Shown here one piece after another: positions 3,483-35,057 of a stretch of DNA of 52,819 nucleotides. The stretch spans positions 1-52,819 of the IMG/VR virus record IMGVR_UViG_3300033984_000283, one strand, 5' to 3'. This DNA is from a virus. The position numbers and the translations under genes were made by a program. The notes beneath the pieces were generated by a model. The model was not told the origin of the DNA. It made no database searches and saw only the letters and a program-made list of their open reading frames with translations. Each line of letters opens with the position of its first letter. Positions within the stretch are counted from its first letter, which is position 1.

Positions 3483-3489
3483 TAGTAAT

Positions 3490-3509
3490 AAAATAAAATA
3501 AAATAAAAT
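3490..3509 (+). repeat. AAAAT pentanucleotide tandem repeat before a start codon
   Basis: Four perfect AAAAT units fill most of the 30-base gap between two virion genes and end three bases before the ATG at 3513. Tracts like this can change length by slippage and so change the spacing or A-richness of the translation start region. Whether the copy number varies is not known. Confidence 0.85.
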
Positions 3510-3512
3510 AAT

Positions 3513-5699: not shown

Positions 5700-5702
5700 T
5701 TT

Positions 5703-6275
5703 ATGACATCAATAATCCTAAATAGTATCACAGGGTTAACTTACCCATACGATGTTTACGTATGTGATGTCTATGGGAATAATTGTGGATATATTGTTCA
5801 AATTAACACACCTGTACCAGCATCTGTAGAAATTGTATTACCAATTCCATTTGATATGGCACCCGCTGTCGGTATTAAAATTATAACCTCGGATGGGTGT
5901 GAACGATTTAATATTATTAATTGTAACTCTTTATACCCAACGCCAACCCCAACAATGACTCAAACCCCAACAAACACTCTTACTCCAACACCGACACCAA
6001 CTATAACTCCAACAAACACTCTTACTCCAACACCGACACCAACTATAACTCCAACCCACACACAAACCCCAACAAACACTCTTACTCCAACACCGACACC
6101 AACTATAACTCCAACCCACACACAAACCCCAACAAACACTCTTACTCCAACACCGACACCAACTATAACTCCAACCCACACACAAACACCTACACCGACT
6201 CCAATATATTATTTAGAACAAGCCAACGGGTTTTACATTTTACAAGCCAATGGGTCAAAAATTATTATAACATAA
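5703..6275 (+). CDS. Virion protein with Thr-Pro repeat stalk
   Basis: A 190-residue protein in three parts. Residues 1-75 form the shared small module ([11 protein letters not shown], then YDVYVCD), also seen alone at 2198-2419. Residues 78-166 are an almost pure Thr-Pro stalk encoded by a 60-base tandem repeat. The last 24 residues hold two similar short strands (YLEQANG and ILQANG) ending in KIIIT, resembling the terminal beta-hairpins seen at the ends of some phage fibre proteins. The architecture suggests an anchor, a stalk and a tip. It is translated three bases after the 728-residue gene. Its exact place on the virion is unknown. Confidence 0.7.
5969..6190 (+). repeat. 60-base minisatellite encoding a Thr-Pro stalk
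   Basis: One partial unit (5969-6010, 42 bases) and three 60-base units (6011-6070, 6071-6130, 6131-6190) run head to tail. The second and third units are identical, and the last differs only near its end. Each unit encodes 20 residues of Thr-Pro sequence and keeps the frame, so gain or loss of a unit would lengthen or shorten the stalk without a frameshift. Confidence 0.95.
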
Positions 6276-6277
6276 AC

Positions 6278-6289
6278 TATTTATAAATA
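6278..6289 (+). promoter_or_regulatory. TATTTATAAATA element before the 212-residue virion gene
   Basis: This 12-base palindrome contains TATTTATA on the coding strand overlapped by TATAAATA, the sequence of the T4 late promoter box. It ends seven bases before the ATG at 6297. It is a candidate late promoter; the short distance would give an almost leaderless message. Confidence 0.4.
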
Positions 6290-6296
6290 AAAAGAT

Positions 6297-6935
6297 ATGC
6301 CAGATTTACCAATATCAGGATTACCCGAATTAACCGCTACAACCTCAAATGCAGAATATGCTGTTGAACTTTCGGGAACAACATATAAAATAAAACAATC
6401 AACATTAACACCGTTTCCGTTGGCATATGGTTTATTTGCCCAAACAGGTGATAGCGCTACGGTATCCGCAACCACTGTCGAGACTAGTGTAATAGGACCG
6501 GGTGTTGGGACTTTGTCTGTTCCTGCAAATAGTTTCAGAGTTGGTGATTCGTTTCAAGCATCATTCGATGGCGTTTTGTCTTGCATTAACACCGCAACAA
6601 TCCACGTTCACGTTAGAACAACTGGTGGGACATTACTCATTGATACAGGAGTAATAGATTTGGATACCTCAACCTCAAAGCCTTGGTTATTAACACTATA
6701 TTTCACGATAAGACAAATCGGGGGAACCACCGTTGCTTCAATATCATCCGGTGGACTATTCTCCTACCTTAAAGATTCTGGACTTACCTATGAAGGATAT
6801 CCATTAAGTGAGATTAATAATACGACATTTGACACCACAATAATCAACACATTATCGGTGAATGTCCAATGGAATACCACTAATGCGGGAAATCAAATAT
6901 TTTCAAGAAATTTTACACTTACTAAAATTTATTAA
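6297..6935 (+). CDS. Virion fibre-like protein with a C-terminal beta-sandwich
   Basis: A 212-residue protein. The N-terminus (MPDLPISGLPELTATTSNAE) and the following VELSGTTYKI stretch resemble the short attachment repeats found in many phage tail and head fibres. From about residue 60 to the end it is a regular alternation of beta strands rich in Thr, Val and Gly with single His and Phe positions. This is consistent with a jelly-roll or TNF-like trimer head. No catalytic motif is evident. Its 3' end overlaps the convergent small gene at 6932 by four bases. A virion role is likely; the fold is an inference from strand pattern, not from a search. Confidence 0.65.
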   Translation: MPDLPISGLPELTATTSNAEYAVELSGTTYKIKQSTLTPFPLAYGLFAQTGDSATVSATTVETSVIGPGVGTLSVPANSFRVGDSFQASFDGVLSCINTATIHVHVRTTGGTLLIDTGVIDLDTSTSKPWLLTLYFTIRQIGGTTVASISSGGLFSYLKDSGLTYEGYPLSEINNTTFDTTIINTLSVNVQWNTTNAGNQIFSRNFTLTKIY

Positions 6936-7114
6936 TCAATAGGTTTATTTTCTCTCTTACCTAAATTTTCATATATCCTTAGAAGTTTTAAGGATTCGTA
7001 GTAATTTTTTTCTAATCTATCAAGTTCCTTCTCAGGAACACCTTTGTCACAAGCCGTTTCGTAGACATTTTTAGCCTCAGTAACAACATTTGATATTGTG
7101 TCTATAAGTTTCAT
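6932..7114 (-). CDS. Small coiled-coil protein (60 aa)
   Basis: A 60-residue, highly charged, helical protein starting MKLIDTISNVV with heptad-like spacing of hydrophobic residues (Val, Leu, Leu, Leu). The ATG at 7114 is chosen over an in-frame TTG five codons upstream, because the TTG would place the TATTTATA motif inside the gene. It is the only minus-strand gene within the plus-strand virion block. Its stop overlaps the stop of the fibre gene at 6935, and its start is divergent from the gene at 7218. The function is unknown; a small regulator or chaperone is possible. Confidence 0.6.
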   Translation of the reverse strand: MKLIDTISNVVTEAKNVYETACDKGVPEKELDRLEKNYYESLKLLRIYENLGKRENKPID

Positions 7115-7117
7115 ATC

Positions 7118-7125
7118 TATAAATA
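7118..7125 (-). promoter_or_regulatory. TATTTATA motif upstream of the 60-residue gene
   Basis: On the minus strand TATTTATA ends three bases before the ATG at 7114. It is divergent from a second copy at 7191-7198 facing the plus-strand gene. The pair suggests a small bidirectional control region of about 100 bases. Confidence 0.4.
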
Positions 7126-7190
7126 TCAACTACCTCACCATTTATTAACAACAAATGTCAATTATATTTTAATAAAATCAAACTTTAGAT

Positions 7191-7198
7191 TATTTATA
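7191..7198 (+). promoter_or_regulatory. TATTTATA motif upstream of the 220-residue gene
   Basis: TATTTATA lies 19 bases before the ATG at 7218, nearly the same spacing as the related motif before 2198. It would restart transcription of the plus-strand block after the opposing small gene. Confidence 0.4.
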
Positions 7199-7217
7199 GT
7201 AAAATAAAACTTGTATA

Positions 7218-7880
7218 ATGATATATTACTTTACTTCTTGCTGTGATAGAACAAAGGTTTTTGGGGTTCCAAATAACTCTAACCCGTTTGTGCCTTGGAA
7301 TGGTTTCACAGATACTGTTGGAACAACATACGGACTTGTTATTGGTTCATACTCAGGATGCGTAACATATAGTGGTAGTTCAAACACCGTTATCACAAAC
7401 CCGCCTATACCATTAAAAAACGTATCCTCAACTCCTCCAATATTTATTTCATATAGTTGTAATCAATGTATTATTTTATTTCCTTGTTATACACCACCCG
7501 TTGTTGTACCCCCTACAATCATAGGATATCAAAACGAATGTGGAATTGTAACAATTTTACCAATGAGTGTAGTATGTGAAAGTTCTCCACCATCAGTTTG
7601 GGGTCTCGAAGATGGCGAAGTCTCGGTATCAATATCGGGAGGAACCGCCCCATATACCGTCACTTGGTTGAATAACGGAAATGTCTCACCAGCACTTGAA
7701 ATGGTTGGAAATGGTTCATACACCGCAACTACGGTTGATTTTTATGGTGATTACACGGCAACAACAGTTTGTGAAATATTCACACCAAAAATTTGCACGT
7801 TTGGTGCTAGTATAGAAGAAACTTTTGTGGAAGAATGTCTTCCTACGGTAATGTCCGGATACACATTTGATATAACTTAA
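7218..7880 (+). CDS. Virion protein with an SprB-type repeat
   Basis: A 220-residue protein. Residues 1-100 are Cys- and Pro-rich with no recognised fold. Residues about 115-185 look like one SprB repeat: an acidic DGEVSVSISGG stretch, then APYTVTW, a GNGSYTATTVD strand and a Cys. SprB repeats are known from the gliding adhesin SprB of Flavobacterium and related Bacteroidota surface proteins. This protein has the features of a phage surface or fibre component carrying a host-like adhesin domain. It is seven bases upstream of the 751-residue adhesin-like gene. The repeat assignment is from motif recognition and is fairly secure; the role is inferred. Confidence 0.65.
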   Translation: MIYYFTSCCDRTKVFGVPNNSNPFVPWNGFTDTVGTTYGLVIGSYSGCVTYSGSSNTVITNPPIPLKNVSSTPPIFISYSCNQCIILFPCYTPPVVVPPTIIGYQNECGIVTILPMSVVCESSPPSVWGLEDGEVSVSISGGTAPYTVTWLNNGNVSPALEMVGNGSYTATTVDFYGDYTATTVCEIFTPKICTFGASIEETFVEECLPTVMSGYTFDIT

Positions 7881-7887
7881 AACATAT

Positions 7888-10143
7888 ATGCCAACAACAT
7901 TTTCAGCAGCAACCTGTCTAACATCAAGTTTCGTTTCACCGGGACCATTTAACATCTATTTAACCGATGATTATAGTTCAACACCCTTTAGTTCTGTAAC
8001 AAAAAATCAACTTACAATTGGATGTCCATTTATTTTTAGTAATATTCCTACCGGAACAACCACCCTTTACTTAAAAGATGTTAACTTACTTTATTGTTTT
8101 ACAATACCTGTTAGAGATAACAACATATGTCAAACTTGTAATTTAGGATTATCTAACTATTCTGCAACAACAATAACAAGATTGTCTTGTGGTTTTTTAA
8201 CAGGGTCTTGTCAAAATATTACGGACTATGTTATTCATTGGTATGGTCCAAACGATACAACAACATTACAAAAAAGAACCGGATTTGGTTCAGTTTTTTC
8301 AGGACAATACGATATTCCCCACCCATTTTTGGGCATATCTTCTATACCTTTACCCGAAGGTATTTACACCCCTATTATTCAAAAAGTAATTGTAAGTGGG
8401 TTAACTTTTTCAAACACAGGTGGGACCAATAGTATATTGTTTGATGGTAATTGTCTTCCAACAACAACAATACAACCATTAACTTGTTTTAATCAAACTA
8501 ACACAAAAACTGAATATTGGGCTAGCGGTTATAATCATAACATTACATTTAGTTCACAAAGTCAAGGAATACCTCAACCAGTTTCATCAACATATGTGTT
8601 GTCTCCAACCACAAATTTTATTGCTTGGAAATTTCAAGGTAAAGCGAATCCGGATACAATTAAATTATCATTTAGAGGTAGTAGTTATCTTAATGATATT
8701 GGATTGGAAAATTGGGTAATTGGTACAAATAGTTCCAACGCATATACTCCATCTTTAATCTCTAAATCAGCCGCAACCGCAAGTTATTTTACAAAAATAA
8801 CTTGTTTAACAGGATTAACAAGAAATCCCGGTGATGAAATAATTATTGATGTAATCCCCGCAGAAGCAAATACTGATTGGGACTTACTTATAACGTGTTT
8901 AGATAACTTTAATTGTAATAGTTGTGCATATACTAACCCATACAAAATTATTGGTTCAACAATAACAGGAATTACAAATAATTGTAAAATAAACGTAAAG
9001 TTTACAGTGTCCGGATGTTCTTCAAATACTTTATTTAGTGAGGATTATTTTAAGTATTACGATACCACCGAACTGAATGGTGTTAGTACATTATTTCAAG
9101 ACGCTCAACGTATTTTATCACAACAACAATTTGGAGGTACATTTAACAATATTAGATACGCAGACACAAATGGTAATTTACCATATGATAGTGCCGATTT
9201 TTATTATAATAATAAAGTTTGTACTTATGATTTTCAATATCCTCAAGGTGCCCTAACTAGTTGTAAAACAGACCCAAATGATATAACTTACAAAAAAACA
9301 TTTTTAACTGATGGTAGCAATAGAGGAGTGTTTAGCATTACCGGTTCATCAACCGTAATATCAACATTTTACGATTCTTGGATAGCCGCCATCAACCTTT
9401 CAAACTCATTAGGATATAACCCTAATAACACAAATTTGGGGTATTATAGATATTTTGGTTGGTATTTTCCAAAAACGAATCACCCACATGCTTGTGGTGA
9501 CCAAAGTGGTACAAACGCGGCACTAATTCACCCATCATCAACGGTATTAACCGGGACAACATCAGGCGGAAATTACTTTTTTAATATAACCGCAAATACA
9601 ATCACAAGCGGATATACCATTTCTACTTGTGATATCGATTGTGTATCACGTATTAGTGGGGTATTATCGGTTGTTAACGATTCTTCAACCGGGAATACAC
9701 AATTTAATCAATACTTTTCTGCCAATACAAGTTTTGGTTGGTATGGTATCTATTATGCCCCCGTATTTGAATTTTTATATTATATCACAGCACTCACAAC
9801 CACATTTTCAGCACAAACAATAGGAGAAAAAATATTTACCAATGATTGGTCAACAAGTACATACCCATATTCAGGAACATCACCTTCAATAATACCATCA
9901 TTATCCGGTTCTGTATGTAACTTTAATAATCTTGGTTCTGAAGGGTCTTTTCAAGGGGGTTTCTACAACAACACATTATTATGTCAATATACAACATTAT
10001 ACCCTAATTCTGCCGATACTAGTAGTTTTGAAATATGGGCAACCCCAATTATTAATTATGTTCCAACACCGCCAGATGTATTAGCATACAGATATTCAGG
10101 TGGAAATGTTACATATTCATCATCAACATATATAATCGGATAA
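7888..10143 (+). CDS. Large adhesin or fibre-like virion protein, paralogue B
   Basis: A 751-residue beta-rich protein paralogous to the 728-residue product of 3513-5699. Both open with an S-A-[AS]-T-C-L motif followed by an IYL/IYT strand. They share LTGSCQ near residue 104-109, a C-N-x-C-A-Y motif, YKI, TITG, SGCSSN/SGCTTN and a late PSLSGSVC/PTLSASTC stretch. No enzyme motif is seen. The two copies differ most in the central region after the C-N-x-C-A-Y motif, the part one would expect to evolve under receptor selection. It is followed three bases later by the 431-residue protein. A receptor-binding or tail-surface function is inferred. Confidence 0.7.
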   Translation: MPTTFSAATCLTSSFVSPGPFNIYLTDDYSSTPFSSVTKNQLTIGCPFIFSNIPTGTTTLYLKDVNLLYCFTIPVRDNNICQTCNLGLSNYSATTITRLSCGFLTGSCQNITDYVIHWYGPNDTTTLQKRTGFGSVFSGQYDIPHPFLGISSIPLPEGIYTPIIQKVIVSGLTFSNTGGTNSILFDGNCLPTTTIQPLTCFNQTNTKTEYWASGYNHNITFSSQSQGIPQPVSSTYVLSPTTNFIAWKFQGKANPDTIKLSFRGSSYLNDIGLENWVIGTNSSNAYTPSLISKSAATASYFTKITCLTGLTRNPGDEIIIDVIPAEANTDWDLLITCLDNFNCNSCAYTNPYKIIGSTITGITNNCKINVKFTVSGCSSNTLFSEDYFKYYDTTELNGVSTLFQDAQRILSQQQFGGTFNNIRYADTNGNLPYDSADFYYNNKVCTYDFQYPQGALTSCKTDPNDITYKKTFLTDGSNRGVFSITGSSTVISTFYDSWIAAINLSNSLGYNPNNTNLGYYRYFGWYFPKTNHPHACGDQSGTNAALIHPSSTVLTGTTSGGNYFFNITANTITSGYTISTCDIDCVSRISGVLSVVNDSSTGNTQFNQYFSANTSFGWYGIYYAPVFEFLYYITALTTTFSAQTIGEKIFTNDWSTSTYPYSGTSPSIIPSLSGSVCNFNNLGSEGSFQGGFYNNTLLCQYTTLYPNSADTSSFEIWATPIINYVPTPPDVLAYRYSGGNVTYSSSTYIIG

Positions 10144-10146
10144 TTT

Positions 10147-11442
10147 ATGAGCACAGAAAAATATTACACAATAAAAATAACGGGGACAACGTCATCACCG
10201 GGACCATACACAATTTATCTTGATAGTGTCTTTGGAACCGTTGCAACACTTTATCCTGTTGCCGCCCCAGCAACAGGTTTATCATTACCTTTATTACAAG
10301 CGGGCGTAACAATAAAAACTAACACCACACCAAACTCAATTTTCCTTTACAATACGTATTGTGGTAACAATTTATCATTATTACCACCGGTGAATATTAC
10401 TTATAATCCATTCTGTTTATCATTTGAATCTAGTTATTTAGGAACTGTTGTACATAAAACTTTCATACCAAATGGTTTAGTTGGTGGATACCCTTCTTGG
10501 AAGGATAATGAATTGAATTCAACAATTACAATCACTTGGGACGCAACTCTGAACCCCGCTAGATTTGTAATAAATAATTATCAACCGGGGGGAACAGGTA
10601 ATGTTATCTCATCAAAATATCCAACTAACTCAACATCAAACCCACCAAGTAATTGGCAGAGTGTTGGGGGGGTTTCAGTATACTTTACCCAAACTTTAGG
10701 TAATTGTCCCGTAATACAACAAGGTAATTTTAGAAGAAGTGTAAACCAACCTACGTGTATATGTGACGGTAGTATTATTTTTAATGTTGATTTAGATAAC
10801 CCACCTTTCAGTTATTCAATTGATAATGGTGTAACCTATTCATCATCTCCAATATTTACAAACCTTTGTAGTGGAACTTATATTTTAGCAGTTCTTGATT
10901 CAATTGGGAATGTTCATTTAAGTACGGAAATAGTAAAAACTGAAATCCCATCAACAACGTATACAATATCTCTTTACACAACTAATACAAAACCGGTTAA
11001 CAATAATGTGTCGTTAGCAAATTCATATCAAACAACAGTAGTAGTGAACCCACCGTTACCTAACGGAGCAACAATAACTTTTGATTTAATACATAACAAT
11101 AATTTCTATTCATCACCTAATAGTGGAACATCAATACTAACCACTTCAACATTATTATATAAAAATGGTGATGAAGTATTATTAACAAGCACTTCAAATA
11201 GTGTTAATCAATCTGTTAATACCGCCGCAGGATGTCAAACGGATTATGTTTACCAATCAAATATTAGTGATGTTTGGAGTTCATTAACAATCTCTAATAG
11301 TGATACAATAACAATCTCTACATCATCAAGAGTTGACAAAACAACAACAGGAAAATGTGTTGTTGGATATAGTAACGATAACTACTCAATTAGTAATCCG
11401 GTTATTAGTGGATGCGATTGTTGTTCAATAATTATTAACTAA
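10147..11442 (+). CDS. Virion protein with the shared N-terminal module and an SprB-like repeat
   Basis: A 431-residue protein. The start (YTIKITG, then SPGPYTIYLDS) is the same type of module as in the 728- and 751-residue proteins. A segment near residues 200-265 resembles an SprB repeat: PTCICDGSIIFNV, then PPFSYSIDNG, then GTYILAVLDS. The C-terminal third ends in a Cys cluster (SGCDCCS). No enzyme motif is evident. It lies three bases after the 751-residue gene, so the two are probably cotranslated. It is likely another component of the same fibre or surface assembly. Confidence 0.65.
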   Translation: MSTEKYYTIKITGTTSSPGPYTIYLDSVFGTVATLYPVAAPATGLSLPLLQAGVTIKTNTTPNSIFLYNTYCGNNLSLLPPVNITYNPFCLSFESSYLGTVVHKTFIPNGLVGGYPSWKDNELNSTITITWDATLNPARFVINNYQPGGTGNVISSKYPTNSTSNPPSNWQSVGGVSVYFTQTLGNCPVIQQGNFRRSVNQPTCICDGSIIFNVDLDNPPFSYSIDNGVTYSSSPIFTNLCSGTYILAVLDSIGNVHLSTEIVKTEIPSTTYTISLYTTNTKPVNNNVSLANSYQTTVVVNPPLPNGATITFDLIHNNNFYSSPNSGTSILTTSTLLYKNGDEVLLTSTSNSVNQSVNTAAGCQTDYVYQSNISDVWSSLTISNSDTITISTSSRVDKTTTGKCVVGYSNDNYSISNPVISGCDCCSIIIN

Positions 11443-11457
11443 TAATAAAACACAGAA

Positions 11458-11465
11458 TATTTATA
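11458..11465 (+). promoter_or_regulatory. TATTTATA motif upstream of the tail-fibre-like gene
   Basis: TATTTATA lies in the 27-base gap before the 807-residue gene and ends four bases before its ATG. It may start a transcript for that gene and the RuvC-like gene behind it, or it may mark an AU-rich translation start. Confidence 0.35.
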
Positions 11466-11469
11466 CAGT

Positions 11470-13893
11470 ATGGCATATATAATTAAAAACACATCAGCGT
11501 TAATTAGTACAAGATTAACCGACACAGCTAGACAAAAACTATCTGAAGGTAATTTTAACATTTCGTATTTCCAAGTTGGAGATAGTGAAGTGTCTTATAA
11601 TACACTAACCGGAACATCTTACAATCAATCTAGTAACAATATATTAGAACCTAATTTTAATTCACAAAATTCCGCTCCGGGACAAAGTAATAAACAAAAT
11701 GTAAAATATCCAATTTACGTTGACCCTGATGACAGTAATACGTTTGGTATTCCATTTTCAGACCCAGCGGTTTCTCCAATATATAATAGAGCAACAATGA
11801 GAGGTTTTTTTAGTGGAGATTCATCCACATCTAATTGGAGTGCATTAACCGATACTAACTATGTGATTGATTCTAACTACGTTGTTGATATTTCAACATT
11901 TACCGGAGGAACAAACATTAAAATAATATACTCAGCTTGCGGTGATTCAACCATTGTTAGATTACCAGCTAAAGGTGATTTAATAACAATTTATTTTGAC
12001 GGTAATTCAAGTTCTTGTACCACTGAACCAATTTCTGTTACCCCAACACCGACACCAACACCGACACCAACACCATCATACGACGCTTGTATCATATATC
12101 CAACACCAACACCGTCATCATCTTGTTGCGTTACAACACCAACAGGTTGTACTCCAACACCAATTATTAATAGTTTTGTAAATGTTAATAGTTGTTACAA
12201 TATATTAACATACAGAATTGTCGATATTTGTTTAAATGTTGTAACATTAGATAGAGTAACACCAAACTATTCATATATTGCCTCCGGATGTTCTTATGTT
12301 AGAACATTAGTGTATCCGCCAAATATGACTGATTTATATGACAGTATTACACCGTCACCACATTGGAACACTGATGTAATTAATTATGAATCTGTTTGTA
12401 ATACAGACGAATTTGACGTTAAAGTTTGGAATATGAATATTCCTTGGTCGGAGAATCCTGCGGGATTAATTGACACTATTTCTCAAGATTATAAAACATT
12501 TAACTCTAAATCATACATTGGAACTAAAGAATATTTAGGATATATGTCCGATAGTGGACAAACTTTTGTTAATATGGCGGGCGATGTTGAAGATTCAGTT
12601 TATTACTACGACTCATTTTACAATAAAATAACAGTCGCACCTAAAGAACAAAAAGCTATCGCAATTATTCATTACACAAACCAATCTATTGATTTCTTTT
12701 ATGGTGAAAAATTTGCATTAGAACAACCTATTAGTGGAACAATCCCTGAAGATATTACAGGAGACGCTAGAAACTTTAAACTACATTTACCTTGGTTAAT
12801 GTGGCATAAAAACCCTGAATGTTGTTTTGGTGAAACATTTTATGTTAGTCCACCTGAAGACAAGGTATTAATTAACGTTTTTGAACCTCACTATATTAAA
12901 TCAACAAAAAGTAGTGATATGAATAATCCGGGTATTCGATATTATTTTTTATGGGACACTCACCAAAATAGTAGTAGTGGATTACCAAATAGAGTTGGTA
13001 AAGTATTCCCTGACCAAAAAATAATAATTATAGATGATGAAGAATTGATTGCGGCGTTATCATATAAATCAAACCGTAACTGGACTTTACCGGCAGCAAC
13101 AACATCACTAATCGTTCCAAATAGTTGTAGTTCAAAAGAAGGGTCATTTAATGGTGTATTAACAAGTGCTAATCAAACTATGTATGTTAGTTATTTATTA
13201 ACAAATACAACCTCAGGAGCAACTAATTCATTACATTGTAATTACTACTCAACCATATCCGGACCAAACGTTGACTGTGGAACTCCGGGTAGTCAAAACG
13301 TTGCTGTTAGATTTGGTGGAGAATTTAATTGTTTAAATCAAATAACAAATAATTCACTTTTTGGTGGTTATATTGCAAATAAATTTCAAATTATTTGTCA
13401 AATAGTTGAGGACGGTAGTAGACCTTTGTCAAACGCTTGGACAATAATTAACTTTACAAACCAATTAAGTGCGTCAACAGTAAATGGTTATATAACTCAA
13501 AGCGGATTAACAGGGAACACATTTGTTATAACTAGCGATATGCTTAACTCTACTGTCGCAACAAAATACAACTTAAATAATTACATTTCATTACCACCTA
13601 AAACACCAATAAATCTTACAACACCTACTCTTAATTTTGGTGACGAATATTATTTCTATGGTTCATTAGAAACCGACATCCAAGCAACTATCTATGAAAT
13701 GAGATATAAGATAAACCTTGGTCAAGCAGAATTTCAACGTTCATCAAACCCAACTTGGTCACAAGGTGTCTCACCATATATTTCAGAAATTGGGCTTTAC
13801 GATGACAAAATGAATCTTATGATTGTATCAAAGCTACAATCACCTATTCTTAGACAGGGGATTCAACAGTTTTTAGTAAAATTTGATTTTTAA
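11470..13893 (+). CDS. Tail-collar-fibre-like virion protein with a Thr-Pro insert
   Basis: An 807-residue protein. The N-terminus (MAYIIKNTSALISTRLTDTA, then FNISYFQVGDSEV) and the C-terminus (PYISEIGLYDD, then SPILRQGIQQFLVKFDF) fit baseplate-attached tail-fibre proteins of myoviruses. In that family an N-terminal domain senses a growing-assembly partner, and the end reads E-x-[GA]-[IL]-Y-D. Residues about 190-235 are a Thr-Pro and Cys-rich linker. The rest is a long, mostly beta region of unknown fold. It is the longest gene of the plus-strand block and lies just before the RuvC-like nuclease. A fibre that joins the baseplate to the receptor-binding proteins is the best guess. Confidence 0.65.
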   Translation: MAYIIKNTSALISTRLTDTARQKLSEGNFNISYFQVGDSEVSYNTLTGTSYNQSSNNILEPNFNSQNSAPGQSNKQNVKYPIYVDPDDSNTFGIPFSDPAVSPIYNRATMRGFFSGDSSTSNWSALTDTNYVIDSNYVVDISTFTGGTNIKIIYSACGDSTIVRLPAKGDLITIYFDGNSSSCTTEPISVTPTPTPTPTPTPSYDACIIYPTPTPSSSCCVTTPTGCTPTPIINSFVNVNSCYNILTYRIVDICLNVVTLDRVTPNYSYIASGCSYVRTLVYPPNMTDLYDSITPSPHWNTDVINYESVCNTDEFDVKVWNMNIPWSENPAGLIDTISQDYKTFNSKSYIGTKEYLGYMSDSGQTFVNMAGDVEDSVYYYDSFYNKITVAPKEQKAIAIIHYTNQSIDFFYGEKFALEQPISGTIPEDITGDARNFKLHLPWLMWHKNPECCFGETFYVSPPEDKVLINVFEPHYIKSTKSSDMNNPGIRYYFLWDTHQNSSSGLPNRVGKVFPDQKIIIIDDEELIAALSYKSNRNWTLPAATTSLIVPNSCSSKEGSFNGVLTSANQTMYVSYLLTNTTSGATNSLHCNYYSTISGPNVDCGTPGSQNVAVRFGGEFNCLNQITNNSLFGGYIANKFQIICQIVEDGSRPLSNAWTIINFTNQLSASTVNGYITQSGLTGNTFVITSDMLNSTVATKYNLNNYISLPPKTPINLTTPTLNFGDEYYFYGSLETDIQATIYEMRYKINLGQAEFQRSSNPTWSQGVSPYISEIGLYDDKMNLMIVSKLQSPILRQGIQQFLVKFDF

Positions 13894-13896
13894 CAT

Positions 13897-14496
13897 ATGA
13901 AAAAAACATTAAAAGAAAGCCCTAAAGTTTTAGGGCTTGATGTATCAACCAAAACTATTGGTTGGGCATTATTTGACATACAAAGTAGAGAATTATTAGA
14001 ACTAACCCACGTATCACCAACACCAAAACCAAAGGAAGATAATAAAATAAAAGAACTACTTCTTAAAGGTGAAATCTTTAGAACCAAACTTTTAGAGTAC
14101 AAAGATATGGGTATCACTAAAGTTATTATTGAGGAACCTCTATTAAACTCAAATAACGTCTATACAGTCCAAACTTTATTAAGGTTTAACACATTAGTCA
14201 CAAAAGAAATTTACGACGTTTTAGGGGTAGTTCCTGACTTCATATCAACATATAACTCTCGTAAGTTCGCCTTCCCCGAATTAGTTAAAGAAAATGATAA
14301 AGGTAAGTTTGTTTTATTTGGTGGTCTACCAAAAGACATTGATAAAAAACAAATCATATGGGAATTAATAGCCAAAAAAGAACCCCAAATCACTTGGCAA
14401 TACACAAGAAACAACACTCTTAAAAAAGAGAACTTCGACCAAACAGACGCTTATTGTTGTGTCTTAGGTCATATGAATCAAGAAAATTTATGGTAA
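13897..14496 (+). CDS. RuvC-like Holliday-junction resolvase or RNase H-fold nuclease
   Basis: A 199-residue protein with the RNase H-fold signature of the RuvC family. It has VLGLDVSTKTIGWA (Asp15) on the first strand, VIIEEP (Glu79/Glu80) at the fourth strand and NFDQTDAYCC (Asp181, Asp184) on the last helix. These are the expected three or four metal-binding acids. Such enzymes cut four-way junctions before packaging, the job done in T4 by the unrelated endonuclease VII. It is the final gene of the plus-strand virion block, three bases after the fibre gene and directly before a terminator, so it would be expressed late, when DNA debranching is needed. Confidence 0.8.
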   Translation: MKKTLKESPKVLGLDVSTKTIGWALFDIQSRELLELTHVSPTPKPKEDNKIKELLLKGEIFRTKLLEYKDMGITKVIIEEPLLNSNNVYTVQTLLRFNTLVTKEIYDVLGVVPDFISTYNSRKFAFPELVKENDKGKFVLFGGLPKDIDKKQIIWELIAKKEPQITWQYTRNNTLKKENFDQTDAYCCVLGHMNQENLW

Positions 14497-14498
14497 TA

Positions 14499-14527
14499 AA
14501 AAAACCCCCAATTAAGGGGGTTTTTTT
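14499..14527. terminator. Bidirectional intrinsic terminator between convergent operons
   Basis: A GC-rich stem, five C residues pairing with five G residues and extended by A-T pairs, closes a six-base loop (AATTAA). It is flanked by A-runs on the left and T-runs on the right. The same structure therefore ends transcripts from both the plus-strand gene ending at 14496 and the minus-strand gene ending at 14533. Confidence 0.93.
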
Positions 14528-14532
14528 ATTTA

Positions 14533-17500
14533 TTAACAGAATGGGTATATACAACCTGCAGTAAATGTTGAGTAGTTACTATCAATAACATTACCATTTA
14601 ATAATGTTGCCGATATTCTTATTCTATAATTATGAACCGGATTTGAAGGTGGACAAGGTCCATTCCATCCATTAAAATTATCACCTGAACCATAATCTGT
14701 TGGTTGAACATTACCACTATTCCAATTACCATTTATAGGTATGTTTAATTGGGTCGGGTCAATATCCGTCACCCACCAATGGATGAAATATCCATCAGGA
14801 CTACTACCTGAAGCATCTATATCTTCACAAAGTATTTCATAACTCACAACATTTGAAACATCGAACGAATTTAAAATCCAATTCATCTCAGGAGAGTCAT
14901 TAAATTGGTAACAAAACGATGAATAATACGCTGTTGGAATAACATTTCCTTCAGTATATGTGTTACTGTATAATGTTATTGATGGTTCTCCCTTTTTACA
15001 AGTTGAAAAGATATCAATGTTGTATTGAGTGGTTGATTTTTTATCACACCTAACCGTATACACAAAACCAATTTCACTATTACTACTTGTTTGAGAAAAT
15101 ACTGATGCTCCATTATACGTAACATTTAAAGTAACCACACTATTAGTTACATTTGGTGTTAATACAATTTTTACAACGTCACCCTCATTTGTACCTAAAG
15201 TACTAATAAATACATTAGCGTCAAAGGTTGAATCAAATGAATAGATTAAAATATCATTAATATATATATTACCACTTGCGTTAGACCTAGCACAATCACT
15301 CCAATTTCTTAATTTAGTAGGACAGTTTGATTTAACAGGAACAATAACAGTATCTAACAGTTTAACACATTCTTCACAAGGTTTAACCCCATCACTACCT
15401 GTATATATTGTTGGCGACACATCGTCAAACCAATTATAATCATAAGTTGTTCCACCCCAATTGTTCTCTAATTGAGCTAAATCACTAGAAATCTCTTTCA
15501 ATTCCCAACAAAGTTTATTTGTAAAGTCCAAAATAACACCACCAACAACGTTACCCGGAACCGCAGGAACCGGTTGAATAACTACAGTAGTTTTATTCGG
15601 TCTTTCTCCGCATATTAAATAAGCGTAATACGTTTTCTTAGAAGACGGTGTTGGAGTCATTGTCATTGTTTGAGTTGGGGTTTGAGTTTGAGTTGGAGTA
15701 TTTGTCGGAGTTTTAGTTGGAGTCTGAGTAGGAGTTTTAGTTTGAGTAGGGGTTTGAGTATTTGTAGGCGTAACTGTAGCCGTATTTGTTGGTGTTGGTG
15801 TTGGAGTTGGAGGTATAGACCCAATTGTTGGTGTTTGACTTGGAGTATGAGTTGGTGTTTGTGTTTGAGTTGGCGTATTTGTCGGAGTTTTAGTTGGTGT
15901 TTGAGTTTGGGTAGGCGTAACTGTCGTAGTATTTGTAGGAGTAGGTGTTGGTGTAAGACAACCAAATTCACATTCAATATCGTAATCAATTCTCATTTTA
16001 ATTAAAACATTAGAATTATGTAACGATTCCGGTTCACAATTTGTTGAGATTGTTATTTCATTTGTTAATGGATTAATATCAACATTTCCCGGACCAATTT
16101 GAGGGCACGATTCAATCAATGATGCGATTGTTGAGTACCATAAATTATCTGAAGGGTAATCCTGCAATGTAGACCCTGTATAGAATGTTGCGGAATTAAC
16201 ACAGTCACCAATGACTGTTGACGCTGAGAATATTGTTTGAGTTAAAAGACAATTTTCATTCCCTATAATTAATTCGGCATATCCCTCATTTAAATATTGT
16301 CTAGGACCTGAGTAAATTTTCATAGGTTTGTTTAATTCACCTAAACAAACATTAGAATAACCTACTTGGTTTTCGTAGACTTTATCTCCCCTAATACCCA
16401 TTCTTTTCGCTTTTGAACACCCTGAACTATCTACAATTCTAACCTCATAATCACCCGGAGGTAAATCAGTTATTTCCATAACAGTAGTTCCAACAGTATC
16501 TCCATCAAAATATAATGTAAACGGTGGTGTCCCGTTTGTTATATAAGATGTTAACGAACCATTACTATTAATAGAGTCAGTACTTAATAAATGAAAATCA
16601 ATAGTATTTGAACCATCAATGGTAAACGGAGATGATTGATTACATAACAATGCGTCTGTCACATTTGCAATATAATTACCTGAAAATAAATTAGTAAAAG
16701 TGTATGACGTAAATGAAGTTGATATAGATTTACCATTAATTGTATACAAATAAGGTGGAGTTCCACCTGAAGTTATTTCCAATTTAACCGACCCATCTTT
16801 TCCGTTACAAGTTGTTCCGGTTGTGGTAACTGTTAAATCATACACAACATCATTATTAATGACGTAAGTCCCCATAAATACACATAAAGCAGAACCTGAA
16901 TCAGATACTGTTAATGAATATGTTCCTGACGATAAAAAATCAAAAATCCAAGTACCACTATCTGATGGTGTTTGACTGTCTGAATTACCGTCAGAATCTG
17001 TTAAAGTAAATGTATAAGGAGCAACCCCACCAAAAACTTGAATAGGACCTATTGCTCCTGATGAATCATTACACTTTGAGTTTCTTGTATTAACAGAAAC
17101 TGTAGATATCCCCATAGGAACTTGTAGAGTAACTGTTGCTGTAAACGTACATAACCCGGCATCAGTAACTTGAATTGTAAATCCTCCAGCACCCAATCCA
17201 CTAAAGACAACAGTTCTGTCAAAAGTAATATTTGTTACACCATTTGACCCTAAGTAATAAAATGGTGGTGTACCGCCGGTTATAGTTATACTAACTTCAC
17301 CATCACTACTAAAACAAGTCGGTTGTGTTAAATAAGCAACACCAAAACCAACGGGTTCTATTTTACCAACAAACCCACTTTTACTTATACTACATCCTGT
17401 ATTATCTGTAACTGTCACAGAGTATGTCCCTGTCGATAAATTAGAAATAGAATCCCCAACACTACCGTCAGACCATAAATACGTATATGGTGGGTTACCT

Positions 17501-18105
17501 GTTAATCCTGAAATAAACATTTTTCCGGAATTAACTGCACATCCCGCATCGTTTACAATGTAGAAACCATAATCAATTGTTGTTGAATTTTTAATAATAC
17601 AAGTCTCAGACTTCCCGGTACAACCACCTCCGTCATCAGCAATCACATAATAAGTTCCATAAGGTATTGTTGTGAATTCAAATGTGTTTGAATATGATGC
17701 CCCTGAGGATACAAACCCTGTTGTATTATTATATAAACTAAAAGTTGATATATCATACGCATTAATTGTTGACGCAATTAGAGAACCATTATTGAACCCA
17801 CATAATGTGTTGGTTGCTGATGTTATTGTAACACAGGTTCCACTAGATATAATAATATTTACCGGTAATATTGTATTGGTTGGAGCACAACTATCAATAA
17901 TGTTGAATGAATACGTTCCTGCGGATAAACTTGTTGCGTTATATGTTGTCGCGCTTGGACCTAATGAAATAGTTGTTGCCGATGGTGATAACCATTGGAT
18001 GGTATAATCAGGAGCTTCACCAATAATATCAATGGTGAACGAACCTGAATTAGTATTAGCACAATCTCCTGTTATACTAGCGTTATATGTTAAATTACAA
18101 GGCAT
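14533..18105 (-). CDS. SprB-repeat virion adhesin with a Thr-Pro stalk
   Basis: A 1190-residue protein. Residues about 13-570 hold seven consecutive SprB-like repeats of 65-85 residues. Each has a Cys, a [DS]G-x-[VI/F] strand, a PPY/PPF motif, GTYSVTVTD or a variant, and a closing GC. Residues about 715-825 are a Thr-Pro stalk in two blocks separated by IGSIPP. The C-terminal 360 residues form another Cys-containing beta-rich region. SprB repeats are characteristic of the gliding adhesin of Flavobacterium and similar Bacteroidota proteins. No signal peptide is present, which fits a virion protein rather than a secreted one. It is the last gene of the long minus-strand tail operon. A long fibre or adhesin is the likely role. 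Confidence 0.78.
15640..15960 (-). repeat. Thr-Pro-encoding degenerate repeat tract
   Basis: About 320 bases of imperfect short repeats built on ACTCC/ACACC units encode two Thr-Pro stalk blocks in the 1190-residue protein. They differ from the 60-base minisatellite at 5969 in not being exact, but use the same codon vocabulary. They could recombine with the other Thr-Pro tracts in the window. Confidence 0.8.
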
Positions 18106-24160: not shown

Positions 24161-26000
24161 AAAGAGTTGCGTAATTATTTAAAGTACTTTCTATATAATT
24201 AGTTCCTTCCGGTATTATTCTAAAAATAAAATTTTCATATGGATAATGTTTTCCATTTAAAAATGGATAATCAACACCATTACCGAGACCATCATTAAAA
24301 CCATAGGTATATAAATCTCTCCAAATAAATGAATTGTATGTTGTTGAAAAATATGAGTAATCCGGAACACCCACCATATTGTTAATGCTACCTGTTTCTA
24401 TATAATCAGAAAACCCTCTTATTTTCATTCGTCTATTTGGTTTGTAGTAATAACCAAATTGATTATTATTCATATCTACCAAACTCATATCAAACACATC
24501 AGTATTAAATGTAAACTTATGATACATTTCAGAAATAACTCTTTCTTTTTGTTCATAATCATTCCACTCACAGTAATTACCATTTATTGTGTCACCACTT
24601 TTAAGTGATTTAAGATATGTGAAATCAATATTTATTCCATTCACATTACCACCATAAGGTGTGTTATAATACCCCGTTGGATATGCGTTATTATTTGAAT
24701 CCACAAAATTTGATTCTACCGTATCCACATCCCACCAAGTTTGTGGGTTATTAAACTGAGTATCCGGTGGTAAATTAAAATCAAACCCCTGTTTTAATCC
24801 CACATCATTACCATTACTATCAACACCCCCAAAAGTTAATCCAAAATACCCTTTCCAAATTGTTGTAATATATAACTCACTAATTGGTCGTTTTTGATTG
24901 TCACGCAACTCACTAACATCAATATCTTTATTAAACGATAAAGTATATGATTGAGCATTTTCTTTAATTGAAACTCTCTTTACATTATTTGGTGTATAAA
25001 CAGGACTTTCAAATTTCTTTTTAGTCCCAAATATATTTTTTTCAAACCCGGCATTAACTAAAACAGCGTCATTAACATCTGTAATTATTTTATGTTGAAT
25101 CACATAATATTTGGATGTAGTATCATTAGGGTTTTCATAATTTATAACTCTTTTAAATGTTCCTGTAGTTTGGTCATCCACAAAAATTGAAGACCCGTAT
25201 CCGATATTAAATATGTTAAAGATATACTCATTAGTTCCCGGCAAACCGTCTCCAAAAGAAAATACTTGATATGTATTAACATACCCATTATTTAATTTTA
25301 TTTTTACAAATTCAGATTCCGATAATCCGTGTTTAACGGGACATCTAAATTGAATTATAGGGTTCCCTCCCTCCATAATATCATTACCGTCATTATCCTT
25401 ACTATTAATTATAAAAGGAATCCCATCAACAGCATTCCAAACAAAAGTAGGAACATTAGACCCGGTACCATCATAAAAATTCATAACCTTATCTATGTTC
25501 TTATATGGATAACTAACAAAATGATTCCAATTATAGGTTGAAGCACTTCTAGCGACAAAATCAACGTGAACCTGTGGTTGTCCATTTGGAATTGTTGATG
25601 GTATTGGAACCGTGTATCCCGAAACATTGTAATCACTTCTAATAAAATCAAACTCATCATATTGGGGAAATCCTTCCCAACTTACTGAGGTAGACAACGC
25701 CCCACATTGTCTTAAAGTTAACGCAGTTTCATTAATGTAATATAAATTATTTTCTAATGGTTCATAATTTGTTGAACCCGTATATGAGTTATTAAATAAC
25801 ACTTGAAACTTACAAACCGGTCTAAATGTTGTCGATTTTTGCCTTTCATCGTTAAATATTTGAACTAAATTAACATCAATACTCCTATCAAATTCTTCAA
25901 GATTTTTTGTGTTTTGAACCAATGGTGTTGGTATCGATAAATTAGTGTCCGTCGACGTTTTATACCTTAACGACCCTAATACTATTCTTATATCATCCAT
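24123..26000 (-). CDS. Tail or baseplate-operon structural protein (625 aa)
   Basis: A 625-residue, mostly beta-rich protein starting MDDIRIVLGSLRYKTST. It is rich in Asn, Tyr, Phe and Gly, including several YGYN and GYY-type stretches. No catalytic or binding motif is recognised. Its start is one base after the stop of the 1884-residue gene, and its end overlaps the next start by 38 bases. The composition and the operon suggest a large virion or baseplate component. Confidence 0.6.
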   Translation of the reverse strand: MDDIRIVLGSLRYKTSTDTNLSIPTPLVQNTKNLEEFDRSIDVNLVQIFNDERQKSTTFRPVCKFQVLFNNSYTGSTNYEPLENNLYYINETALTLRQCGALSTSVSWEGFPQYDEFDFIRSDYNVSGYTVPIPSTIPNGQPQVHVDFVARSASTYNWNHFVSYPYKNIDKVMNFYDGTGSNVPTFVWNAVDGIPFIINSKDNDGNDIMEGGNPIIQFRCPVKHGLSESEFVKIKLNNGYVNTYQVFSFGDGLPGTNEYIFNIFNIGYGSSIFVDDQTTGTFKRVINYENPNDTTSKYYVIQHKIITDVNDAVLVNAGFEKNIFGTKKKFESPVYTPNNVKRVSIKENAQSYTLSFNKDIDVSELRDNQKRPISELYITTIWKGYFGLTFGGVDSNGNDVGLKQGFDFNLPPDTQFNNPQTWWDVDTVESNFVDSNNNAYPTGYYNTPYGGNVNGINIDFTYLKSLKSGDTINGNYCEWNDYEQKERVISEMYHKFTFNTDVFDMSLVDMNNNQFGYYYKPNRRMKIRGFSDYIETGSINNMVGVPDYSYFSTTYNSFIWRDLYTYGFNDGLGNGVDYPFLNGKHYPYENFIFRIIPEGTNYIESTLNNYATLYGAAQPTKDDCE

Positions 26001-26001
26001 C

Positions 26002-31656: not shown

Positions 31657-31669
31657 TTTTATCTTTTTT

Positions 31670-31677
31670 AATAAATA
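31670..31677 (-). promoter_or_regulatory. TATTTATT motif before the tail operon
   Basis: On the minus strand TATTTATT ends 13 bases before the ATG at 31656, the first gene of the 17-kb tail operon. The same 13-base distance is seen before the gene at 44308. It is a candidate phage promoter element. Confidence 0.4.
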
Positions 31678-31724
31678 GTTTATATACCATTTTTAAAAGA
31701 TAAAACATTTTTTTTGAAAATAAA

Positions 31725-32651: not shown

Positions 32652-32682
32652 TTATTAAAAATAGAGAATACCGATTAAATTA

Positions 32683-34521
32683 TCAAGAGAAATTAACCGT
32701 TTTTAAATTTTTAACTCTAATGTTTATATCTTTGTTTGCATATTTTATTTGGTAAGTTTGGTTTGGTTCCGCAAAGATTGTATCATCAATTAACCCTATC
32801 TGATAAGTTGTACTGTCAATATATCGTTGAGATGTTTGAGATGATGAATACTGTCCACCAACTTTATTAAAGACTTGAATATCGGATAATGAAATTACCC
32901 CGTTTTCACTTTGTATTAATCTTCTTAATTCAGAAATATTAACATTTTCACCCATTTGTCTATTTTCCGGATTAAAATATTCCGAAACAATCGTAATGAT
33001 TTGAGAAATAACTGTTCCTTGGTTTTGTGTATTATCTAAAACAACATCAATATTAAATCCTAAATCAATAACGTTAGCACTTTGTATTGACACATAATCA
33101 TTTATCATACGATAGTTTGATAAATAATTTGCAACATTATTCTTTAAAGTGTTTGAAATTACCTCTGTTAGTCTACCTGTTTCATCATACGACAACATTT
33201 GGACAATAATTTTATTATTGTTTTCCGTTATTGATACTTTTGCCGGAGCTCCAAATTGTGAAGGCATTGTTCGGATTATTGAATCGTAATCATTTACGGT
33301 TACCGCTCTTTTTTGTGATGAGAAATTATATGAAACTAAATTTCTAACTTCTTCAGTTGTTGGGTAATTAGCTCCCCCAATCGCTGCGGTTACGTTTGTA
33401 CATCTTAATGAATTTACTACAGTTGTGTTAATACTATCTGATGGTCCGTTCACAAAGAATGATACTGTACCTATTTGAGTAATTGAATTTACACCAATAT
33501 TACTACCTACACCACCACCAACTCTATATTGTATGAATAGTGTTGTATTTGGTTTTAAAGTACTACCTAACGCTAAGTTGTTGGAATACTTATATAGATT
33601 TAATTGATAACCATCTCTTGCAAACTCTCTTAACTGTTCGTCCGCAGATTGTGAACCACCCCCAAAAGTAATTTTTAAAAATCCTTCAGGTGTAAATTCA
33701 CTAATAAACTTAGTACTTGTTTGAATGTATTTCCCCACTTTAATCCCCGGAGAATCCGATACTTTTGTTGGGTCTTCTACAAATACTCTATCTTCCGCCA
33801 AAGCATCCACTTCATACCATCTATTATCTAACCCTAAGAACTCCTGAACTGACGGTATATTAGTATACTGTGTACTATCTTTCAACAAAACACTAGTTAT
33901 ACCCAATACATTCTTGTCCGGTAAAAATAATTCATAAAAAGGTCTAACATCATTAGGTGTTATTACTTTTTTAAACACTTTTGTTGTTCCATTAACAACA
34001 GTTTCTCGTTTAGTAATTGTATAGTTTAATAATTTATTATTTGAATCAAAATTAGGTATTTTTAGTCTATTTGGAAAACCTTCACCATTAATAGGTGATG
34101 AGAAATCAATATCATATACAGTTTCAAAGACTTGTCCGGCACCATTAACTTGTGACCCTCTTCTTAGAATACCACAATATCGTAAATCTTCTTTATCCCC
34201 AAAAGCAGGAACTGTAATTGAAAAATCAACTAAAGCAACCGATGGTCTCATACCCGGAACTTTTAATCCATAAGTTTTTGCTATATTAAAAACTGACGAC
34301 CTTTGTTGAGCATATTGAAGAACTGTCTCTTGAATACTTCTATCAATGTTAAATTGTAAGTTATCCGTTACCGCAGCGTTCAAATCTAATAATACAGAAA
34401 AAACAGACGCGTCATTGAAGTTTTGAATCGTGTCCGGATAATACGTTTTAGTGAAGTTAATTAACTCAGTTCTGATTGATTGGAAATCCCTTGTTGTGTA
34501 GGAAATTTTCTTGTTTGCCAT
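32683..34521 (-). CDS. Baseplate wedge protein, gp6/J-like
   Basis: A 612-residue protein that fits the T4 gp6 / P2 J family, which forms the ring of wedges around the baseplate hub. The N-terminus (SYTTRDFQSIRTELINFTKT, then DASVFSVLLDLNAAVTDNLQ) is highly characteristic of the family. A later segment (YNFSSQKRAVTVNDYDSIIR) with a preceding TEEVRNLV is the usual baseplate-J core. It lies four bases after the gp25-like gene, the neighbour it also has in other myoviruses. This is one of the clearest markers that the phage has a contractile tail. Confidence 0.9.
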   Translation of the reverse strand: MANKKISYTTRDFQSIRTELINFTKTYYPDTIQNFNDASVFSVLLDLNAAVTDNLQFNIDRSIQETVLQYAQQRSSVFNIAKTYGLKVPGMRPSVALVDFSITVPAFGDKEDLRYCGILRRGSQVNGAGQVFETVYDIDFSSPINGEGFPNRLKIPNFDSNNKLLNYTITKRETVVNGTTKVFKKVITPNDVRPFYELFLPDKNVLGITSVLLKDSTQYTNIPSVQEFLGLDNRWYEVDALAEDRVFVEDPTKVSDSPGIKVGKYIQTSTKFISEFTPEGFLKITFGGGSQSADEQLREFARDGYQLNLYKYSNNLALGSTLKPNTTLFIQYRVGGGVGSNIGVNSITQIGTVSFFVNGPSDSINTTVVNSLRCTNVTAAIGGANYPTTEEVRNLVSYNFSSQKRAVTVNDYDSIIRTMPSQFGAPAKVSITENNNKIIVQMLSYDETGRLTEVISNTLKNNVANYLSNYRMINDYVSIQSANVIDLGFNIDVVLDNTQNQGTVISQIITIVSEYFNPENRQMGENVNISELRRLIQSENGVISLSDIQVFNKVGGQYSSSQTSQRYIDSTTYQIGLIDDTIFAEPNQTYQIKYANKDINIRVKNLKTVNFS

Positions 34522-34525
34522 AATT

Positions 34526-34984
34526 TTATATATTAATAATTACAAAGTCACTACTATTAAACACATCATTGTTGATGGTGTAATCAATCTTAACTTTCGC
34601 TGTATGTTCTTTATTCGACATATTTGGTACCCGAAATATTCTCTCATCGTTATCATTTATATAACTACCTTTATCTTCACTACCCTCTGAGGCGGCTTGG
34701 ACACTAATGTTAGTTATTGTTATCCCCGGTAAATAGTTTCCCGCGGATTCTCGTATTTCAGATTCTATTTCTGAAAATGTTGGACCATCTAATGGTTCAA
34801 AAATAAACTCATATAATCTTGTCCCAAAATCCGGTAAATAATATCTACTACCTTTTCTTGTTAATAAAAGGTGTATTAAGTTAGACCTAATCTCTTGGTC
34901 ATTATAATCTGATAAATCTAAGTATTTCCCATCAAAAGATTCTCTGAAAGGAAAAGTTAAACCATATGTTGTTCCATCTGCCAT
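34526..34984 (-). CDS. Baseplate wedge protein, gp25-like
   Basis: A 152-residue protein of the gp25/GpW lysozyme-like wedge family, which links the sheath to the baseplate. Diagnostic parts are MADGTTYGLTFPF at the start, RYYLPDFGTRLYEFIFEP in the middle and ESAGNYLPGITITNI after it. The ATG at 34984 is preferred over an in-frame GTG at 35041. The GTG lies inside the hairpin of the ribonucleotide reductase terminator, and the family begins at the MADG position. Two TATTTATA motifs precede it. It is followed four bases later by the gp6-like gene, a conserved pairing. Confidence 0.9.
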   Translation of the reverse strand: MADGTTYGLTFPFRESFDGKYLDLSDYNDQEIRSNLIHLLLTRKGSRYYLPDFGTRLYEFIFEPLDGPTFSEIESEIRESAGNYLPGITITNISVQAASEGSEDKGSYINDNDERIFRVPNMSNKEHTAKVKIDYTINNDVFNSSDFVIINI

Positions 34985-34987
34985 AAC

Positions 34988-35022
34988 TATAAATATAGTG
35001 TCGTAATTATTTCTTATAAATA
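34988..35022 (-). promoter_or_regulatory. Paired TATTTATA motifs before the gp25-like gene
   Basis: Two copies of TATTTATA on the minus strand (34995-34988 and 35022-35015) lie 27 bases apart between the reductase terminator and the gp25 start. The nearer ends three bases before the ATG, the farther thirty bases before it. Since the terminator isolates this operon from the one upstream, a promoter is expected here. Confidence 0.5.
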
Positions 35023-35029
35023 GAGTAAA

Positions 35030-35057
35030 ATAAAAAATCACGACCGAAGTCGTGATT
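35030..35057 (-). terminator. Intrinsic terminator with a UUCG loop after nrdA
   Basis: Read on the minus strand, a nine-base perfect stem (AATCACGAC with GTCGTGATT) closes a TTCG tetraloop, and TTTTTATTTTA-type sequence follows. The UUCG loop is an exceptionally stable RNA tetraloop. It lies 24 bases after the nrdA stop and ends the replication cassette. Confidence 0.92.

Follow-up and report, generated by a model that had tools for sequence, protein, structure and literature searches.

What does a repeat family of Bacteroidota adhesins do on a phage protein? The question is raised by a virus (IMG/VR record IMGVR_UViG_3300033984_000283) of which 52,819 nucleotides, called here the window, were analyzed. 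An initial annotation had described a 1190-residue protein, here named P0001, as a virion protein of a giant phage carrying SprB gliding-adhesin domains, by which the phage could mimic or hijack the moving adhesin of its host. The length and the position of the gene (14533-18105) are confirmed, and this is a real ORF, to which we add its orientation: it is read from the minus strand (18105→14533), and stop codons crowd the plus strand over this interval. Six further IMG/VR contigs carry the identical gene; one of these (G003, 272,437 bp) includes the whole window, and its size supports the giant phage.

The gene neighborhood agrees with the earlier assignment to a tail operon (Table 1). The P0001 gene closes a baseplate operon, starting 3 bp after the preceding gene and ending just before a terminator-like site. 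Upstream on the same strand, homologs of gp25 and gp6 (the T4 baseplate wedge) are followed by several large unassigned proteins and by a 1021-aa protein that directly precedes P0001. This neighbor had no Pfam, PHROG or PDB family match, and neither it nor residues 573-716 of P0001 found a match in INPHARED. Since profiles of the 1021-aa, 1884-aa and 625-aa neighbors gave no significant match among PDB sequences, T4 equivalents can be assigned only for gp25 and gp6. Between the baseplate genes lies a lipase/hydrolase-like gene (window 31725-32651, minus strand, weak PF10230 match) with an N-terminal hydrophobic segment. The operon is faced by an opposite-strand island (window 2421-14496, plus strand) of Pro/Thr-rich, Cys-containing proteins, which may be inverted, as its genes share the strand of the operon in some relatives. 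A 220-aa protein (window 7218-7880, plus strand) has one SprB repeat (28.9 bits, barely above the cut-off) and weakly matches a Hoc-like PHROG.

Table 1. Features of the P0001 locus. Positions are those of the window, except where the 272,437-bp contig G003 is named.
Feature	Position	Strand	Remarks
Terminator-like hairpin, operon end	14505..14519	-	3' of P0001 stop codon; CCCCTTAATTGGGGG TTTTTTTATT
Whole P0001 gene	14533..18105	-	1190 aa; proposed baseplate-associated tail fiber/adhesin
SprB-type repeat 1 (residues 1-90)	17836..18105	-	Best-conserved segment, mean identity to orthologs 0.63; candidate virion anchor
SprB-type repeat 2 (91-174)	17584..17835	-	Own-repeat HMM, AF2 core model
SprB-type repeat 3 (175-248)	17362..17583	-	Own-repeat HMM, AF2 core model
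SprB-type repeat 4 (249-330)	17116..17361	-	Top Pfam match, 35.3 bits; own-repeat HMM
SprB-type repeat 5 (331-416)	16858..17115	-	Pfam stretch; own-repeat HMM
SprB-type repeat 6 (417-497)	16615..16857	-	Pfam 31.9 bits; own-repeat HMM
SprB-type repeat 7 (498-572)	16390..16614	-	Own-repeat HMM only; Pfam model misses it
Constant alpha/beta domain (573-716)	15958..16389	-	Shortest orthologs stop here
Pro/Thr-rich linker (717-822)	15640..15957	-	Low model confidence; presumably flexible
Tip module A (823-945), Cys-containing	15271..15639	-	27/44 representative orthologs
Tip module B (946-1060), beta-rich	14926..15270	-	10/44 orthologs
Tip module C, PEBP-fold domain (1065-1166)	14608..14913	-	7/44 orthologs
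1021-aa neighbor, conserved, directly upstream of P0001	18109..21174	-	Candidate attachment partner
gp6/Baseplate_J-like baseplate wedge protein	32683..34521	-	PF04865 1e-7, phrog_219 8e-24
gp25-like baseplate wedge protein	34526..35041	-	PF04965 8.2e-10
Portal	G003 25071-26957	+	Identified by reading translation
MCP	G003 31137-33008	+	Identified by reading translation

Seven SprB-like repeats had been proposed at residues 13-570, together with a Pfam search and a structure prediction by which they could be checked. The Pfam SprB profile (PF13573) matched P0001 as a whole with E=9.2e-20 and 70.4 bits, in 5 stretches; taken singly, two repeats score above the curated cut-off, with 35.3 and 31.9 bits, and the other three stay under it. 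All 44 representative orthologs are matched by PF13573. When residues 1-716 were shuffled three times with their composition preserved, nothing in Pfam matched at E<=1. An HMM built from the repeats of these 44 orthologs (own-repeat HMM) found exactly seven repeats in P0001, at 3-82, 92-171, 174-246, 250-328, 332-417, 419-497 and 500-570, which bears out the number proposed. As this model was trained on the very sequences that it delimits, it defines the count and not the homology, which rests on Pfam.

The array is strongly fixed. The 1021-aa neighbor has ~300 relatives in IMG/VR, and in the 80 loci taken (58-100% identity) the gene after it encoded a P0001 ortholog wherever this could be assessed (75/75). 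All 65 complete orthologs have exactly seven repeats, and a variation of repeat number serving antigenic or length variation was rejected on this ground. Repeats at the same position in different phages share a mean identity of 53%, against 24% between positions within one protein, suggesting that the array is old and that each position is conserved for itself. Conservation declines from repeat 1 (0.63) to the tip (0.29-0.30) and collapses past residue 716; in four of the 44 orthologs (712-713 aa) the protein ends after the constant domain, and the tip is absent.

AF2 run on the core alignment predicted a string of seven all-beta, Ig-like sandwich domains followed by an alpha/beta domain, with a mean pLDDT of 82.6; the pTM of 0.35 makes the relative placement of the domains unreliable. 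When this core model was compared with the PDB by Foldseek, the top three matches were all to the GhpA grappling-hook filament of Aureispira (E 6e-21). A GhpA profile match to P0001 (E=3.9e-4) had a bias correction (40.8) exceeding its score (21.9), and GhpA was therefore counted as fold support only and not as a sequence relative. Among viral predictions (BFVD), the top match was A0A6J5LD72, an uncharacterized 714-aa "SprB repeat" protein (E=8e-64). For the constant domain (573-716), Foldseek gave no convincing fold match.

Past the linker, module C matched PF01161 with E=3.8e-12 and 47.2 bits (cut-off 24), and the same family was found over the cut-off in six of the seven orthologs with this module. 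Its profile had 1fux as the only match among PDB sequences (E=0.0015), and the C-terminal model, of moderate confidence, resembled 1vi3 in Foldseek (prob 0.97, TM(target) 0.49). We take these structures to be YbcL (1fux) and YbhB (1vi3) of E. coli, both PEBP-family proteins. PEBPs have an anion pocket and the conserved motifs D-x-D...HW and GPCPP...H-x-Y/R; judged by eye, the pocket-motif residues appear to be present in P0001, and at locus L069 the His and Cys are lacking.

The PEBP domain was found in 21 IMG/VR loci, on the seven-repeat P0001 ortholog in 18 of them and on a different, unrelated backbone in the other three (L169, L176 and L177, from related phages), where the domain is 45-59% identical. 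This second backbone is homologous to the 728-aa and 751-aa proteins of the window (3513-5699, 7888-10143). Movement of a linker-borne terminal domain from one backbone to another fits an exchangeable binding tip, and such swapping would be infrequent, as tip type mostly tracks core relatedness. At L081 the ortholog ends in Fib_succ_major (E=7.6e-26), and Pfam scans of most other ortholog tips gave no match. Neither the 50,697 phage records nor the literature searched showed a PEBP domain on a phage fiber. The ORFs at L169, L176 and L177 are about 880 aa long and end near locus position 6420.

Fixed repeats next to a tip that varies and is swapped point to a shaft, on the one hand, and an exchangeable binding part, on the other. 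We consider it probable that P0001 is the constant part of a tail/baseplate adsorption apparatus, composed of an SprB shaft, a constant cap, a linker and an exchangeable tip, with the SprB domains as a borrowed spacer. From gene position and architecture, we infer that P0001 is in the virion, and the orientation, the oligomeric state, the function of the shaft, the tip as receptor binder and its ligand are proposed here on the same sequence basis. The N-terminus, where the best conserved repeat lies, would fix P0001 near the baseplate, and the seven SprB-type Ig-like domains (1-572) would form a stiff, extended shaft or spacer. The constant alpha/beta domain (573-716) would cap this shaft, and the flexible Pro/Thr-rich linker would present the exchangeable tip to the cell. 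For a tip of PEBP fold, an anionic cell-surface ligand would be likely; given the apparent pocket-motif residues, this ligand could plausibly be phosphorylated, although that is no more than a guess. More tentatively, the PEBP-tip fiber, at the end of its stiff shaft of borrowed domains, might recognize head groups of phospholipids or phosphorylated glycans on the outer surface of Bacteroidota. The SprB domains may have been acquired long ago as a spacer from the Bacteroidota domain pool, and binding to host SprB would not be needed.

The alternative that survives best, although we hold it to be unlikely, is a decoration of the head or neck in the manner of Hoc or whisker proteins, whose Ig-like domains would bind glycans or cells weakly and non-specifically. 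The best INPHARED similarities outside LR756502 are to Hoc-like/whisker proteins, four of the 44 orthologs match the Hoc-like PHROG 3945 and one matches phrog_2973. Hoc/whisker/pb10 proteins from phages of Klebsiella, Salmonella and Buttiauxella served as controls for the repeat family; PF13573 also matches them over its cut-off (36-54 bits). However, these controls fit Ig_3/I-set better than SprB (four of them at 1e-8 to 1e-21), and P0001, unlike such enterobacterial Hoc types, has no Ig_3/I-set match at E<=1. With the own-repeat HMM, the best single domain scored 48-50 bits in the best-scoring Bacteroidota SprB proteins vs 22-29 bits in enterobacterial phage Ig domains, and 34 domains were counted in one F. 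johnsoniae SprB protein. A Cys pair near the start and end of the repeat is found in 84% of 308 phage domains and in 71% of those of F. johnsoniae, vs 0/10 enterobacterial phage Ig domains. The HMM scores and the Cys pair place the P0001 domains in the Bacteroidota SprB type. Gene position also argues against a head or neck protein, as the P0001 gene ends a baseplate operon that is far from the capsid genes (139-142 kb vs 31-33 kb for the MCP in G003), and so does the long constant core with its exchangeable tip.

The idea of gliding-adhesin domains on a phage protein thus holds for the lineage of the repeats, which is that of Bacteroidota SprB, and fails for their specificity to gliding adhesins. 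The matches of PF13573 extend to the enterobacterial phage Ig proteins, and we know of no gliding by SprB/T9SS machinery in the Klebsiella, Salmonella or Buttiauxella hosts of these phages. SprB repeats are present in at least five ORFs of the F. johnsoniae CI04 genome, several of them unrelated, and T9SS substrates encoded beside toxin genes have been described as carrying them (PMC7073777), so that SprB repeats do not imply gliding. We judge it very improbable that adsorption works through binding or imitation of the host's moving SprB/T9SS complex by the repeats. The repeats are of the host-type lineage, as mimicry would have it, gliding genes do affect phage resistance in Flavobacterium and Cellulophaga, gliding and T9SS genes bear on phage sensitivity in Flavobacteriia, and SprB/RemA have been proposed as possible phage receptors (PMC7345892, PMC13288928). 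Mimicry, however, predicts repeats that track the host adhesin, and they are instead the most conserved part, fixed in number, while it is the C-terminus, as the part likely to determine host binding, that varies; P0001 also has neither the signal peptide nor the sorting domain for entry to the T9SS track. The initial suggestion of mimicry or hijacking is left unsupported, and we found no literature linking SprB repeats with phage virions.

The N-terminus of P0001 shows no signal peptide as far as hydropathy tells (maximum over 11 residues 0.8, vs 2.3 in the LR756502 protein), and no Pfam match to a T9SS sorting domain (CHU_C or Por_Secre_tail) was obtained in P0001, which argues that it is not a secreted adhesin of the host type. 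It is extremely improbable that P0001 is a phage-encoded surface adhesin for display on infected cells. The 642-kb phage LR756502 does seem to encode one, an SprB protein that has a signal-peptide-like N-terminus, PKD and a CHU_C sorting domain, but P0001 has neither signal peptide nor sorting domain and lies in the baseplate operon in every relative. The LR756502 protein, the only match when P0001 was searched against INPHARED, was rejected as an ortholog, being a secreted T9SS-type SprB protein. In this uncultured phage (LR756502.1, L043 12784-17796), it is a protein of 1670 aa with 14 SprB stretches, apparently a complete secreted Bacteroidota-type adhesin. Weak Por_Secre_tail matches (E<=0.01, best 1.2e-5) were seen in 11 of the 44 orthologs, P0001 not among them, and presumably overlap the Ig-like repeats.

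The 272,437-bp contig has a GC content of 32.3% and no tRNA genes. Its terminase is of the T4 type and related to those of T4-like phages of Flavobacterium, cyanobacteria and enterobacteria. Its bS21 gene (G003 27723-27878, minus strand, 29.5 bits) lies on the opposite strand between the portal and capsid genes. A bS21 gene on the opposite strand among the TerL, portal and MCP genes is the arrangement of freshwater jumbo myophages predicted to infect Bacteroidetes (PMC9723584). That position of bS21 and the GC content of 32.3% are common to these phages and the 272-kb phage; the contig differs from them in having no tRNAs, and PMC9723584 says nothing of SprB or P0001. These sequence features support a jumbo myophage, related to T4 and of the bS21-phage type. 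Its hosts are most likely aquatic Bacteroidota in a lake-type habitat, judging by the likeness to the bS21 phages and by the SprB affinity. A search of genome contigs for P0001 relatives returned only cellular SprB proteins (23-38%), with no integrated or binned phage copy recognized. Two further contigs, G007 (282 kb) and G009 (208 kb), have the SprB fiber and no bS21 match, so that, unless these records are incomplete, the fiber is not confined to bS21 carriers. In the 272-kb relative, DUF285 repeats (E down to 1e-127) occur in giant Pro/Thr-rich proteins encoded at L044 13829-17017 and at L047 1216-7134 and 12774-15416, with two further similar-looking ORFs nearby; DUF285 is another repeat family of surface proteins. 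A 1040-aa Pro/Thr-rich protein (272-kb relative, L045 1884-5006) has last ~130 residues that look Hint/intein-like by eye, with no Pfam match at 1e-3.

Orthologs of P0001 were already present in UniProt as uncharacterized "SprB repeat" phage proteins. What is new is the universal, invariant seven-repeat SprB shaft in a group of jumbo phages, the layout of constant shaft and variable tip, and the PEBP tip, a new candidate receptor-binding fold. How environmental Bacteroidota jumbo phages adsorb has hardly been described, and P0001 provides a recognizable, universally placed fiber gene. Because its shaft is constant and its tip definable, metagenomes can be searched for tips, which can then be compared across phages. 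SprB would be the second family of Bacteroidota surface domains used in this way after the BACON domains of crAssphage, pointing to a regular use of host adhesin domains for tail arms among the phages of this phylum. The locus also carries a warning, since neither gliding nor even Bacteroidota can be concluded from a Pfam SprB match alone.

Among known proteins, A0A6J5LD72 of an uncultured Caudovirales phage is 34% identical over the whole P0001 core and has, with 714 aa, the length of the tipless orthologs; it has no tip, and no functional description of it was found. SprB of F. johnsoniae and its paralogs share with P0001 the repeat family and the Cys pair, and GhpA of Aureispira provides the solved fold. 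SprB adhesins of the T9SS have dozens of repeats, whereas P0001 has seven, no signal peptide, no CHU_C/Por_Secre_tail domain and a place in a phage operon. Residues 1065-1166 resemble the PEBP family (YbcL, 1fux; YbhB, 1vi3) by PF01161, profile and fold; the known PEBPs are, to our knowledge, free soluble proteins, and the P0001 domain is fused to the end of a phage fiber. Ig-like domains on phage structural proteins are generally known (Fraser et al. 2006, reviewed in PMC9022992). Hoc, whisker and pb10 proteins resemble P0001 in carrying an Ig-like fold on a structural-type phage protein and in matching PF13573, but they are of the Ig_3/I-set type, have no SprB Cys pair and are usually accessory and variable in presence, while P0001 is obligate and fixed. 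Another parallel is gp64 of crAssphage, a tail-associated protein with a tandem array of BACON domains (PF13004) and a poorly conserved C-terminus (PMC6949934). The two have in common a tail association, proposed for P0001, and Ig-like domains in tandem that stem from a surface-protein family of Bacteroidetes. In crAssphage, a gut phage of the podovirus type, there are eight BACON domains of recent duplication, whereas P0001 combines seven long-diverged SprB domains with identified tips in a jumbo myophage.
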